From Faecalibacterium sp. I4-3-84 (lineage in GTDB: Bacteria > Bacillota > Clostridia > Oscillospirales > Ruminococcaceae): DNA of 64,000 bases. Where the stretch lies: NCBI RefSeq assembly GCF_023347255.1, contig NZ_CP094466.1:2914001-2978000 (forward strand). The letters run 5' to 3'. The translations under genes were made by a program, and so were the position numbers. Below, piece by piece: positions 19,094-21,336 of the stretch (position 1 is its first letter; every line of letters starts with the position of its first letter). A model generated the notes under the pieces. The model saw nothing but the letters and a program-made list of their open reading frames with translations, searched no databases and was not told the DNA's origin.

Positions 19094-19864
19094 ATGGAAA
19101 ACGAACGACGAGTGCAGCAAAAGGCCCCGGCGAGCCGCTACGCCCTGCTGGACGAGCTGCGCGGGCTGGATCTGGTCAGCATGATGCTGTACCATGCCTG
19201 CTGGGACATGATGTTCCTGTTCGGCATCTGGATGGACTAGTATATCGGCTGGCCGGGGCGGCTGTGGCAGCAGAGCATCTGCTGGGTGTTCATCCTGCTG
19301 TCCGGCTTCTGCGTGCCGCTGGGACACCGCACCCTGAAGCGCGGCGCACAGGTGTTTGCTGCCGGGGCACTGGTCACGGTGGTGACGCTGGTCTTCATGC
19401 CGGAGGACCGGGTGGTGTTCGGTGTGCTGACCTTTCTGGGCAGCGCCATGCTGCTCACCGGTGTGCTGGAACCGCTGCTGAAAAAGATCCCGCCCGCCGC
19501 AGGGCTGGCGGTTTCGGCGGTGCTGTTTGCACTGACTTATCATCTGGACGAGCGTTGGCTCGGCTTCGGCGGGCTGCGCCTTGCGTTGCCGGATGCATGG
19601 TACGCGAATTACTTTACAGCGTTTTTCGGCTTTCTGCCCTTCGATTTTTATTCCACCGATTATTTTGCCCTGCTGCCGTGGCTGTTTTTGTTCTGGGCAG
19701 GGTACTTCCTGCATTTCTGCATGGGGCGGCAGCGCATGGAGCCCTTGCGCCGCTCGGTCTGCCCGGCGCTGGGCTGGATGGGCCGCCACTCGCTTTTGCT
19801 GTATCTGCTGCACCAGCCGGTGATCTACGGCGTGCTTTCAGCCGCGGCAGTTCTTTTTGCATAA
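19094..19864 (+). pseudogene. DUF1624 (HGSNAT-like) membrane protein gene broken by an in-frame TAG
   Basis: From ATG 19094 the frame reads MENERRVQQK..., with RYALLDELRGLDLVSMMLYHACWD typical of the start of DUF1624 membrane proteins. It then hits TAG at 19238-19240 (codon 49), and continues open in the same frame to TAA 19862-19864. The second part (IGWPGRLWQQ..., LLSGFCVPLGHR, GRHSLLLYLLHQP) is the rest of the family, with about six membrane helices. A single base change (TGG Trp to TAG) would explain the break. No good SD precedes the GTG at 19286, so a separate downstream protein is unlikely. The family is related to acyltransferases of unknown substrate. Confidence 0.82.
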
Positions 19865-19869
19865 AAGGC

Positions 19870-19898
19870 TTGACACAGCCGGGAAGCTGTGGTATTCT
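19870..19898 (+). promoter_or_regulatory. Promoter of the flavodoxin gene
   Basis: TTGACA (19870-19875), a 17-base spacer, TATTCT (19893-19898). The predicted start is at about 19905, which is the first base of the dyad listed next. Confidence 0.9.
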
Positions 19899-19904
19899 AT
19901 CGGT

Positions 19905-19922
19905 GGTTAGAAGATACTAACC
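19905..19922 (+). promoter_or_regulatory. Operator 1: GGTTAG-N6-CTAACC dyad at the flavodoxin transcription start
   Basis: A perfect inverted repeat with 6-bp arms and a 6-base spacer, sitting on the start site. The GTTAG-N6-CTAAC core recurs at 19971-19986 and 20518-20533. Its shape resembles DtxR/IdeR-type iron boxes, and flavodoxin is a classic iron-starvation gene. The regulator assignment is an inference. Confidence 0.75.
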
Positions 19923-19969
19923 AAATGAGGATGCGTCTGCGTGGTTGGACGCATTTTCACGGAACATAA

Positions 19970-19987
19970 AGTTAGATACATCTAACT
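19970..19987 (+). promoter_or_regulatory. Operator 2: AGTTAG-N6-CTAACT dyad in the flavodoxin leader
   Basis: Second copy of the same dyad, 65 bases downstream of the first and 28 bases before the flavodoxin ATG. Between them, ATGCGTC and GACGCAT form a short hairpin with a weak T tract (about 19931-19957). Confidence 0.75.
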
Positions 19988-20015
19988 AATATTGATTTGA
20001 GAGAGGACGATCTTT

Positions 20016-20432
20016 ATGAGCAAAGTAGCAGTCGTATTCTGGAGCGCAACCGGCAACACTGAGACCATGGCAAACTGCGTGGCAGAGGGTGCAAACGGCA
20101 CCATCGTGCCCTGCAGCGAGATGAACGCCGCAAAGCTGGCTGAGTTTGATGCAGTGGCTTTTGGCTGCCCCGCAATGGGTGCGGAGCAGCTGGAGGAGAG
20201 CGAGTTCGAGCCGATGTTCTCTGATCTGGAGGGTTCTCTGAACGGCAAGAAGATCGCCCTGTTCGGCTCCTACGGCTGGGGCGACGGCCAGTGGATGCGT
20301 GACTGGGTGGAGCGTGCTCAGGGCGACGGCGCACAGGTGCTGAACGGTGAGGGCCTGATCTGCAACGAGGCCCCGGACGATGATGTTCAGGCTGCATGCC
20401 GCAAGCTGGGTGCAGATCTGGCTGCATGGTAA
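20016..20432 (+). CDS. Flavodoxin, 138 aa
   Basis: A small FMN electron carrier that replaces ferredoxin when iron is short. The phosphate-binding loop WSATGNTETMA is at residues 9-19; the aromatic FMN-stacking region is around GCPAMGAEQLEE and FGSYGWGDGQWM. Length and motifs match short-chain clostridial flavodoxins. Start ATG 20016 behind GAGAGAGGACG. Two GTTAG-N6-CTAAC dyads lie between its promoter and start codon, so it is probably repressed when iron is plentiful. Confidence 0.94.
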   Translation: MSKVAVVFWSATGNTETMANCVAEGANGTIVPCSEMNAAKLAEFDAVAFGCPAMGAEQLEESEFEPMFSDLEGSLNGKKIALFGSYGWGDGQWMRDWVERAQGDGAQVLNGEGLICNEAPDDDVQAACRKLGADLAAW

Positions 20433-20448
20433 ACAGGAGAAGCTTCTC

Positions 20449-20505
20449 TTGACAAACAGAGACGGGTGCGATAAACTATGAGAACACCGGAAAAACGGTG
20501 TTTTT
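20449..20505 (+). promoter_or_regulatory. Promoter of the YgbA region, with a hairpin at its start site
   Basis: TTGACA (20449-20454), a 17-base spacer, TAAACT (20472-20477). Immediately after, AACACCG (20483-20489) and CGGTGTT (20496-20502) plus TTTT form a terminator-like hairpin. It could end the flavodoxin transcript while also forming the 5' end of the next one. Confidence 0.75.
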
Positions 20506-20516
20506 GCAGAGCTGGA

Positions 20517-20534
20517 AGTTAGCAAATACTAACT
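20517..20534 (+). promoter_or_regulatory. Operator 3: AGTTAG-N6-CTAACT dyad before the YgbA region
   Basis: Third copy of the dyad, about 33 bases downstream of the predicted transcription start. Shared operators make flavodoxin and the ygbA unit candidate members of one regulon. Confidence 0.75.
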
Positions 20535-20642
20535 TTCACGCAAAAACAACAGCCTCTGTACAGAATGCATCAAAACTGCGGCAGGGGACAGCAGACGGAA
20601 AGGTCTGCGCTCCTGCCGCTTTGGTTTCAGAAGGCGGTGTAT

Positions 20643-20741
20643 ATGGCAGCGGCTGCAGCAATTGGTGTTACGGTAGGCTTTGCATTTTTGCGCCGTGCGG
20701 TGCGCCGCGCTGCAATGCGGTCGGACCGTAGAAAAAAATAA
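20643..20741 (+). CDS. Small hydrophobic-basic protein, 32 aa
   Basis: ATG 20643 behind AAGGCGG opens a 32-codon frame: an Ala/Gly/Val/Phe-rich hydrophobic segment (residues 2-15) followed by an Arg/Lys-rich tail ending DRRKK, and TAA at 20739-20741. This is the layout of a single-pass membrane micropeptide with a positive cytoplasmic end. An in-frame ATG at 20565 would extend it by 26 residues but has no SD. It precedes ygbA by 21 bases and probably shares its iron-box promoter. Small membrane proteins are common in iron-uptake operons, but no family is recognised. Confidence 0.4.
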   Translation: MAAAAAIGVTVGFAFLRRAVRRAAMRSDRRKK

Positions 20742-20762: not shown

Positions 20763-21119
20763 ATGCAGGATACCCCGAAGAACTTGGATCAGAAGCGCGC
20801 AGATGAAAAGATGCTGGTGAGCGAGATGATCGCTCTTTACTGCCGCAGGCAGCACAAAACACCCAAAGGCAGCCTGTGCCCGGAGTGCCGGCAGCTGCAC
20901 GATTACGCCCTGACCCGCATTGACAAATGCCCGTTCATGGAGACCAAGACCTTCTGCTCGGCCTGCAAAGTGCACTGCTACAAGCCGGAAATGCGGGAGA
21001 AGATCCGCGCGGTGATGCGCTGGGCAGGCCCGCGGATGCTGCCGGTGCACCCGGTGCTTTCCATCCGGCATGCGGCAGTCACACTTTGGTCTAAGCGCGA
21101 AGCGAAAAAGGCTGGCTGA
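20763..21119 (+). CDS. ygbA: YgbA family protein (nitrous-oxide-stimulated-promoter domain), 118 aa
   Basis: ATG 20763 behind GCAGGAGGCC. The family signature is visible: an N-terminal helix (EKMLVSEMIALYCRRQH), four Cys in CPECRQLHDYALTRIDKCPF and CSACKVHCYKPEMREKIR, and MRWAGPRMLPVHPVLSIRH. YgbA in enteric bacteria is induced by nitric oxide and supports growth during combined iron limitation and nitrosative stress; its biochemistry is unresolved. The GTTAG-N6-CTAAC box before this unit and its flavodoxin neighbour fit an iron-stress role. Confidence 0.85.
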   Translation: MQDTPKNLDQKRADEKMLVSEMIALYCRRQHKTPKGSLCPECRQLHDYALTRIDKCPFMETKTFCSACKVHCYKPEMREKIRAVMRWAGPRMLPVHPVLSIRHAAVTLWSKREAKKAG

Positions 21120-21177: not shown

Positions 21178-21336
21178 ATGGAAAACATCGGCGTTACCTG
21201 TGATGTCTGCGAGTGCAGCCACAATGTGAGCGGCTGCAAGTGCGACCTGCCCCAGATCAAAGTGACCGAGCAGTGCACCTGCGATACGCAGCAGGTGGAG
21301 ACCCCGCACTACTGCCAGAGCTACGAGAAAAAGTAA
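21178..21336 (+). CDS. DUF1540 cysteine-rich small protein, 52 aa
   Basis: ATG 21178 behind AGAGAGGTGAT. Eight Cys and two His are spread over 52 residues (CDVCECSHN, GCKCDL, QCTCD, HYCQSYE), matching the DUF1540 pattern of small proteins in clostridia, probably metal-binding. It follows ygbA by 58 bases without a terminator and may be co-transcribed with it. A strong bidirectional terminator follows. Function unknown. Confidence 0.8.
   Translation: MENIGVTCDVCECSHNVSGCKCDLPQIKVTEQCTCDTQQVETPHYCQSYEKK

Follow-up and report, generated by a model that had tools for sequence, protein, structure and literature searches.

Putative DtxR-type iron operators and terminator-like hairpins at a fixed distance from them in Faecalibacterium

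The Flavodoxin–YgbA Locus

The DNA analyzed, referred to here as the window, is a 64-kb stretch (positions 2914001-2978000 of a 3.12-Mb single-contig Faecalibacterium genome), and the locus in question carries genes for a flavodoxin, a small membrane peptide, a YgbA_NO family protein and a DUF1540 cysteine-rich small protein, together with three exact copies of the dyad GTTAG-N6-CTAAC and several promoter-like and hairpin-forming sequences. The features, in window coordinates, are as follows:

19870-19898, + strand: promoter P1 of the flavodoxin gene, TTGACA-17-TATTCT (consensus scan)
19906-19921, no strand: dyad A (dyad 1), putative operator at the transcription start, GTTAGAAGATACTAAC, exact match, 7 nt after the -10 hexamer
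19926-19957, + strand: proposed attenuator, hairpin and TTTT, with the stem ending 17 nt and the T-run 13 nt before dyad B
19971-19986, no strand: dyad B (dyad 2), proposed roadblock operator, GTTAGATACATCTAAC, exact match
20016-20432, + strand: flavodoxin, 138 aa (PF00258, E 1.4e-15; TIGR01753 over the cut-off)
20449-20477, + strand: promoter P3, TTGACA-17-TAAACT (consensus scan)
20484-20505, + strand: proposed attenuator between P3 and dyad 3, hairpin and TTTT, with the T-run ending 12 nt before the dyad
20518-20533, no strand: dyad 3, proposed roadblock operator, GTTAGCAAATACTAAC, exact match
20578-20630, + strand: second hairpin of the YgbA leader, with a T-rich tail, with counterparts in G003 and G006, whose tail reads TTTTT
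20643-20741, + strand: small membrane peptide, conserved part of ~32 aa, frame kept in G003 and G006
20763-21119, + strand: YgbA_NO family protein, 118 aa (PF11756, E 1.2e-42; NF007714 over the cut-off)
21178-21336, + strand: DUF1540 cysteine-rich small protein (PF07561 over the cut-off)

No further exact copies of the dyad exist in the window, and none arose in 100 dinucleotide-preserving shuffles of it, so the three dyads named in the original prediction are real, each having been drawn one base too long on either side. With up to two mismatches allowed, the motif was not enriched in the window (7 found vs. 9.7 expected), which indicates that the dyad signal resides in the exact sites. All three sites present the DtxR/IdeR-type half-sites TTAG and CTAA at the spacing of a single dimer (N6) and are very likely to be operators, no binding data being at hand. 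The accompanying claim of a strong promoter near each dyad held in part: promoter-like sequences end 7 nt before dyad 1 (P1) and 40 nt before dyad 3 (P3), and the consensus scan yielded no promoter of its own for dyad 2. A TTGACA promoter resembling P1 also precedes fld in the other fld leaders compared, and there is no exact dyad at the ygbA promoter P3. Absent from the original prediction were the hairpins with a T-run 12-13 nt upstream of both dyad 2 and dyad 3. Its gene identities (flavodoxin and YgbA) held, and its small membrane peptide is supported as far as the C-terminal part is concerned (MAAAAAIGVTVGFAFLRRAVRRAA... from ~20643, recognizable in both other Faecalibacterium genomes compared), the N-terminal part not being recognizable in those two genomes; the peptide had no Pfam match.

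The hairpin between the two fld dyads folded in all nine of the fld leaders examined (-11.4 to -20.0 kcal/mol), with a differing stem sequence in two genomes (G021 and G016), and one half of dyad B is degenerate in three of the nine (G003, G006 and G023). A strong hairpin with a T-rich tail is also found between dyad 3 and the peptide gene (20578-20640), and might possibly represent a second attenuator of the YgbA leader or a short RNA. The DUF1540 gene may belong to the YgbA transcript, co-transcription being an inference. At the gathering score, neither the window nor any of nine loci matched an Rfam family (no permissive E-value search was performed). Upstream of the flavodoxin gene, an acyltransferase-like gene (PF07786, 19094-19864) seems to be interrupted by an in-frame TAG near 19238, with both parts matching the family, and is itself preceded by a perfect TTGACA-17-TATAAT promoter-like sequence.

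Dyad Enrichment and the Genes Behind the Dyads

Exact GTTAG-N6-CTAAC was found 12 times in the genome harboring the window vs. 2 times for the reversed control, whereas the shorter TTAG-N6-CTAA (17 vs. 32 for the controls) is not enriched on its own. At the genus level, exact dyads are present in 25 of 26 genomes (174 in sum vs. 24 for the controls), and at the family level in 54 of 60 (300 vs. 104), with 17 of these 60 showing a dyad count no higher than the controls; the dyad is in use in many of the family genomes, not in all of them. The genes behind the dyads of the genome itself, as called by a simple codon-usage script, are the following:

DUF3793-feoA-feoA-feoB operon, which also comprises a FeoB_associated-like gene (below the cut-off) and a winged-helix gene: two exact dyads upstream
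operon encoding a Tp47-domain protein, FMN_bind proteins and a Fer4_5 membrane protein: one exact dyad and one TTAG-N6-CTAA
264-aa secreted protein (no Pfam match) adjoining the Tp47/FMN_bind/Fer4_5 operon: one exact dyad and one TTAG-N6-CTAA
methyltransferase gene behind a ZIP transporter gene: one exact dyad
pflB with an activase-like gene (by eye): two exact dyads
HMA-domain protein: one exact dyad
short open frame behind a ferritin gene: one exact dyad
fld: two exact dyads
YgbA operon: one exact dyad

In the family loci, the genes behind dyads include feoA, feoB, DUF3793, HMA, FecCD-like and ABC genes (identified by eye and with tblastn). Three TTAG-N6-CTAA sites of the genome itself, lacking one or both of the outer G/C (L029, L031 and L035), were set aside; the first lies near a gene resembling an FMN-binding oxidoreductase (by eye), and there is no iron gene among the gene calls at the other two. 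As for the ferritin gene (L033:4568-5254), the start of its frame is weakly Fur-like (PF01475, below the cut-off) and is possibly a remnant of a Fur/PerR gene. Dyads in other genera are often paired 33-34 bp apart (L104:3707/3741, L113:6816/6850, L153, L159 and L169), a spacing that the exact dyads did not show in the Faecalibacterium loci compared.

A Short DtxR Ortholog as the Candidate Regulator

Three PF01325-like loci are found in the genome, two of them over the cut-off. One encodes a DtxR ortholog (L036, C1:1320365-1320754) matching both PF01325 (42.4 bits, cut-off 26) and PF02742 (56.8 bits, cut-off 27), which is present in 23 of the 26 genus genomes, including all 17 of the good ones. 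The motif is linked to dtxR in related Oscillospirales, where feoA and a dtxR homolog (at least 50% identity) stand in divergent orientation: in 20 of 26 such pairs, the region between the two genes contains an exact TTAG-N6-CTAA, vs. 0.085 expected from shuffles and 0 for a control motif, and 25 of the 26 have one when a single mismatch is tolerated. Many of these loci stem from related rumen MAGs, so they do not amount to 26 independent cases. In two genomes with few or no dyads, G009 (0) and G019 (3), the copies of the ortholog have diverged (65% and 61% identity, respectively); comparing the recognition helices of these two provided no clear explanation.

The TTAG-N6-CTAA unit is shared with the classical IdeR/DtxR box, as described for the Saccharopolyspora erythraea IdeR, of which one dimer contacts repeats 1 and 3 of TTAGGTTAGSCTAACCTAA, i.e., the TTAG-N6-CTAA spacing, and which binds the half site with a KD of 78 nM, one-dimer binding having been shown for IdeR (PMC8464063). 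Unlike the classical box, the Faecalibacterium sites are single units, often two separate ones per leader, and the full 19-bp box (with the second unit offset by 5 bp) was found at none of the 127 Faecalibacterium dyads, the best case matching 6 of 8 bases, once. The Faecalibacterium DtxR ortholog also differs from IdeR in being a short form (~130 aa). The dyads are likely to be one-dimer operators of this short DtxR-family repressor, its binding being inferred.

An early candidate for the regulator was the winged-helix protein (137 aa) whose gene lies last in the feo operon (L030:1908-2321). It matches MarR_2 and Fe_dep_repress without having a metal-binding domain and shows 76-88% identity to copies in seven named Faecalibacterium records, which assigns the genome to Faecalibacterium. 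Its being the reader of the dyads instead of the DtxR ortholog would be in line with its position in the feo operon and with its PF12802 and PF01325 matches, which are just over the cut-off. However, the protein was found in merely 15 of the 26 genus genomes, 14 of the 17 good ones among them, the search of G020 (99% complete, nine dyads) yielding none, Pfam assigns it DNA-binding domains only, without PF02742, and the dyad-linked gene outside the genus is dtxR in the loci compared; owing to its not having been found in G020 and to its Pfam domains, it was ranked lower, and this alternative seems very unlikely.

Iron Response and the feo Loci

In the healthy human gut, few butyrate producers are more abundant than Faecalibacterium, whose iron response has already been measured. 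For F. duncaniae A2-165, the published data show repression of the feoA1A2BC operon by ferrous sulphate, a log2FC for feoB of 6.0 in the early stationary vs. exponential phase (high acetate, no added iron) and a ratio of -2.0 with ferrous sulphate, an upward change of a flavodoxin gene together with feoAABC, and no iron response of a second feoAB (PMC10781979). The strain was not identified among the genomes compared here; what is shared, within the same genus, is an iron-repressed feo operon with a co-induced flavodoxin. Of the two long FeoB genes in the genome analyzed, only that at 866363 belongs to an operon with dyads, and none of the 12 exact dyads lies near the second one (C1:1673624). 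All 13 Faecalibacterium feo loci inspected (from at most 11 genomes, as at least two pairs share a genome) possess one or two TTAG-N6-CTAA sites, five of them only one, and the distance from the site to the DUF3793 start is 63-166 nt in 12 of these loci, the start not having been recognized in L079. That iron is the co-repressor acting at the dyads is an inference. The word “DtxR” does not occur in the main text of the F. duncaniae study, the relevant sections of which name neither repressor nor operator and describe no mechanism (PMC10781979), whereas the present analysis proposes both a repressor and an operator and lists the genes behind the latter.

A manganese-sensing, MntR-like regulator has to be considered, since MntR provides the closest solved relatives of the DtxR ortholog (closest PDB entry 1on1, E 1.4e-13) and sequence does not exclude manganese sensing; the closest NCBIfam models are likewise those of MntR, all of them below the cut-off, and membership in an MntR/DtxR equivalog was not met (best score 81.9 vs. 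a cut-off of 153). Of the six MntR ligand positions, five are kept (alignment by eye). Against such a regulator, the position of MntR Glu99 is Cys in the alignment, as in DtxR (Cys102), feoAAB and flavodoxin are among the genes behind the dyads, and FeSO4 represses feoAABC in F. duncaniae (PMC10781979); manganese is regarded as a very improbable signal. The ligand roles and residue numbers used here are general background.

The DtxR-family iron repressor inferred in the original prediction is supported, albeit without binding data: the genome-wide enrichment of the dyad, its presence upstream of feoAAB, flavodoxin, YgbA and other metal-related genes, and its link to dtxR are all in favor of it, and the published F. 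duncaniae feo and flavodoxin data agree with it. The prediction lacked, however, a second layer, namely the terminator-like hairpin at a fixed distance upstream of many of the dyads. A DtxR-type iron regulon is of an already known kind; the coupling of operator and attenuator is what is new, its mechanism being inferred.

A Fixed Distance Between Hairpin and Dyad

The recurring order of elements in the leaders is promoter, dyad A, hairpin with a T-run, 12-13 nt, dyad B and gene. Hairpins were searched for with a simple script accepting stems with at most one mismatch, a loop of 3-18 and TTTT within 2 nt. In a first set, comprising the genome analyzed and six others (70 dyads, 140 sides), a hairpin with TTTT was found within 30 nt on 44 of the 140 sides, and on 38 of them the stem ended 14-20 nt before GTTAG, vs. 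1.75 in mononucleotide shuffles; the T-run ended most often 13 nt upstream of GTTAG (24 of the 44 matches). In a family set (65 dyads, 130 sides), 21 sides had a hairpin, of which 14 lay in range, vs. 1.5 in shuffles, with two or more of these (L151 and L153, - side) formed by a neighboring dyad. Five further genus genomes, fetched after the spacing rule had been set, showed a stem end 14-19 nt upstream for 28 of 57 dyads (30 of 114 sides), vs. 1.75 in dinucleotide shuffles (maximum 4). Across 254 Faecalibacterium sides, 72 hairpin ends fall at 12-23 nt (46 and 26 in two 6-nt bins), vs. at most 11 in any other 6-nt bin out to ~290 nt.

As the five further genomes belong to one genus with the first set and many of their leaders are orthologs of those in that set, only a count with similar leaders merged allows for relatedness: the modal spacing is 14-19 nt in 21 of 44 distinct leaders (17-18 nt in 13 of them), vs. 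4.8 of 44 expected if it were uniform over 55 nt. The fixed hairpin-dyad spacing is shown at the level of sequence. It has its exceptions, with 29 of the 57 dyads in the five genomes lacking an in-range hairpin; many of these are dyad A sites adjoining the -10 hexamer, some belong to feo leaders, the hairpin of which falls outside the limits of the script, and two (L220 and L225) resemble chance matches within a coding region. Among the 30 in-range sides there are, in turn, at least three that resemble chance hits (L192 +, L200 + and L210 +). Both attenuators of the window were missed by a consensus scan requiring 5 T in 8 bases. When feo leaders were folded, five of six had a stem ending at or near the T-run, the fold being less clear for the genome analyzed. 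Units of hairpin, T-run and dyad are also found close to the second of two ABC-like genes (by eye; L078:2046, L148:1708 and L173:1827) in genomes of three genera, with no obvious promoter.

The simplest alternative is that DtxR represses initiation only, and that the hairpins are terminators of upstream genes or stabilizing 5' hairpins whose distance to the dyad has no function. In favor of it, 24 of 46 promoter-dyad pairs (by pattern) have a dyad beginning 6-9 nt past the -10 hexamer, which would suffice for repression, and intergenic terminators are common. This reading is, however, unlikely, as the distance is fixed across dissimilar leaders, the hairpin lies downstream of a promoter-like sequence of the same orientation at the fld, ygbA, feo, Tp47 and methyltransferase leaders, and leaders with dyad B only, such as that of ygbA, lack an exact dyad where transcription would start. 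The possibility of a second promoter that overlaps dyad B, with the T-run serving as its -35 element, was also considered and rejected, no consistent -10 having been seen in the leaders compared by eye.

Another alternative has dyad B acting in RNA, as a hairpin or antiterminator, and not as a DNA operator, since GTTAG-N6-CTAAC could, as inferred from its sequence, make a 5-bp RNA stem beside the attenuator. Against this, the identical dyad is found at promoters (dyad A) and in the divergent feoA-dtxR regions, the only constant trait of its six inner bases is A/T richness, and no consistent competing pairing was seen by eye (no systematic search was undertaken), so that an RNA role can be regarded as very unlikely.

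Proposed Roadblock Attenuation

Dyads 2 and 3, as well as the dyads of the same genes elsewhere, lie downstream of the promoter and therefore in the path of the polymerase (the promoters being consensus matches). When E. coli polymerase is halted by EcoRI Gln111, the RNA ends 14 nt upstream of the site (PMC5499547), and, with the T-run mostly ending 13 nt upstream of the dyad, a repressor on dyad B should stall the polymerase on or near the T-run. The exact stall point would depend on the footprint of the repressor, the geometry being borrowed from E. coli polymerase and EcoRI.

The explanation favored here, with moderate confidence, combines DtxR-family operators with an initiation block at dyad A and roadblock attenuation at dyad B. 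The short DtxR-family repressor, with iron bound, would have two points of action: on dyad A, which overlaps the transcription start, it would block initiation, and on dyad B it would be a roadblock to polymerase that has already left the promoter. The stalled polymerase would have the 3' end of its RNA on the T-run of the intrinsic attenuator, and the pause there would give the hairpin the chance to release the transcript. In the absence of iron, the repressor would come off the DNA, polymerase would read through the attenuator often enough, and expression of feoAAB, flavodoxin, the YgbA operon and the remaining genes would follow. In leaders with dyad B alone (YgbA, methyltransferase and HMA), the attenuator roadblock would be the main switch. 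Protein binding, stalling and termination are inferred throughout, as opposed to the motif and the identity of the genes behind it, which are shown.

Parts of this proposal have precedents. The repressors CcpA, CodY and LacI (PMC10310618, PMC4132739) likewise halt RNA polymerase from sites beyond the transcription start. In E. coli, it is chiefly Mfd that clears polymerase held up at LacI, the fitted half-life being ~11 s (PMC4132739), whereas in Faecalibacterium there is a terminator-like hairpin at the predicted stall point, and a terminator in that position could possibly release the stalled polymerase directly. The nearest experimental precedent found in the open-license literature searched is YtgR of Chlamydia trachomatis, a DtxR-homologous iron repressor reported to promote the termination of upstream-promoter transcripts at trpRBA (PMC6504234). 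That case, however, concerns one operon, and no hairpin and T-run at a fixed distance are described in the sections bearing on the mechanism, whereas the Faecalibacterium arrangement is repeated throughout the regulon and extends to further genera of the family. The open-license literature searched yielded no account of an operator paired with a terminator at a fixed spacing. If the proposal is true, it would provide a regulon-wide case of a DNA-bound repressor and an intrinsic terminator working as one device, with a spacing rule testable base by base, a route besides Mfd for freeing polymerase stalled at a roadblock, and a repressor-terminator device that could be built into synthetic circuits.

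A Candidate Small RNA Near pflB

The second pflB dyad (L032:8767) lies in a promoter-like sequence reading away from pflB, and divergently from that gene there is a candidate small RNA (sRNA) locus at L032:8728-9209 (G000:C1 ~2038727-2039208). In the 12 genomes compared, TTGACA precedes the dyad by 41-44 nt, and beyond the dyad lies a conserved non-coding stretch containing CTCCATTC, a hairpin whose loop is GTTTGC and a strong terminator with the loop TGACCA, a motif that also served to find the last of the 12 genomes; the second hairpin is present in nine of them. RNAalifold gave 25 pairs, 10 of them with changes on both sides, and the single-sequence z-scores (n = 4) were -5.9, -3.4, -5.35 and -3.45. 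No Rfam family was matched at the gathering score. A covariance model of the RNA found strong matches (E < 1e-7) in 26 of 31 genus genomes, 12 of which had been used to build it, with two more matched weakly and three not at all; among 97 other genomes of the family, 11 gave matches, all of them weak (E 2.6e-6 or worse). Wherever both positions were listed (17 genomes), a dyad lies upstream of the RNA, at 10-65 nt and, in the genome analyzed, 266 nt (hand-derived values). The candidate possesses its own promoter and operator (the promoters being sequence matches), structure, its own terminator and no conserved reading frame, the frames having been judged by eye on the alignment.

This RNA is best regarded as a candidate iron-responsive sRNA, its iron response being inferred from the dyad and its expression and targets being inferred as well. 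The iron-responsive sRNAs of other bacteria include RyhB, FsrA and IsrR. Like these, the candidate is non-coding and structured, lies at a putative iron-repressor operator and carries a C/U-rich stretch with complementarity to ribosome-binding-site-like sequences; unlike these, it has a DtxR-type and not a Fur-type operator, matches no Rfam family and is strongly matched only within the genus in the genomes searched. A target search with the C/U motif (12 bases, at most one mismatch) returned 34 places, one of which is the complement of the sRNA itself and six of which are copies of a leader before a transposase-like gene (by eye); the 30 places read showed no Fe-S enzyme start or iron theme by eye, and the search was set aside as having produced nothing convincing.

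A bolder reading, for which the arguments on either side seem evenly balanced, is that roadblock-gated attenuators operate regulon-wide in gut Oscillospirales, the dimer stalling polymerase on the T-run and thereby turning a weak terminator into a strong one when iron is present, and that the same repressor would control the Faecalibacterium sRNA family, which would pass the iron signal on. The candidate sRNA would then be a possible iron-sparing regulator for the genus.

From the dyad to the terminator end, the sRNA locus spans 182-240 nt in the other genomes and 443 nt in the genome analyzed, where a tandem repeat of ~100-nt units (L032:8785-9048), absent from nine other genomes aligned, is inserted between the operator and the sRNA core and accounts for the longer span.
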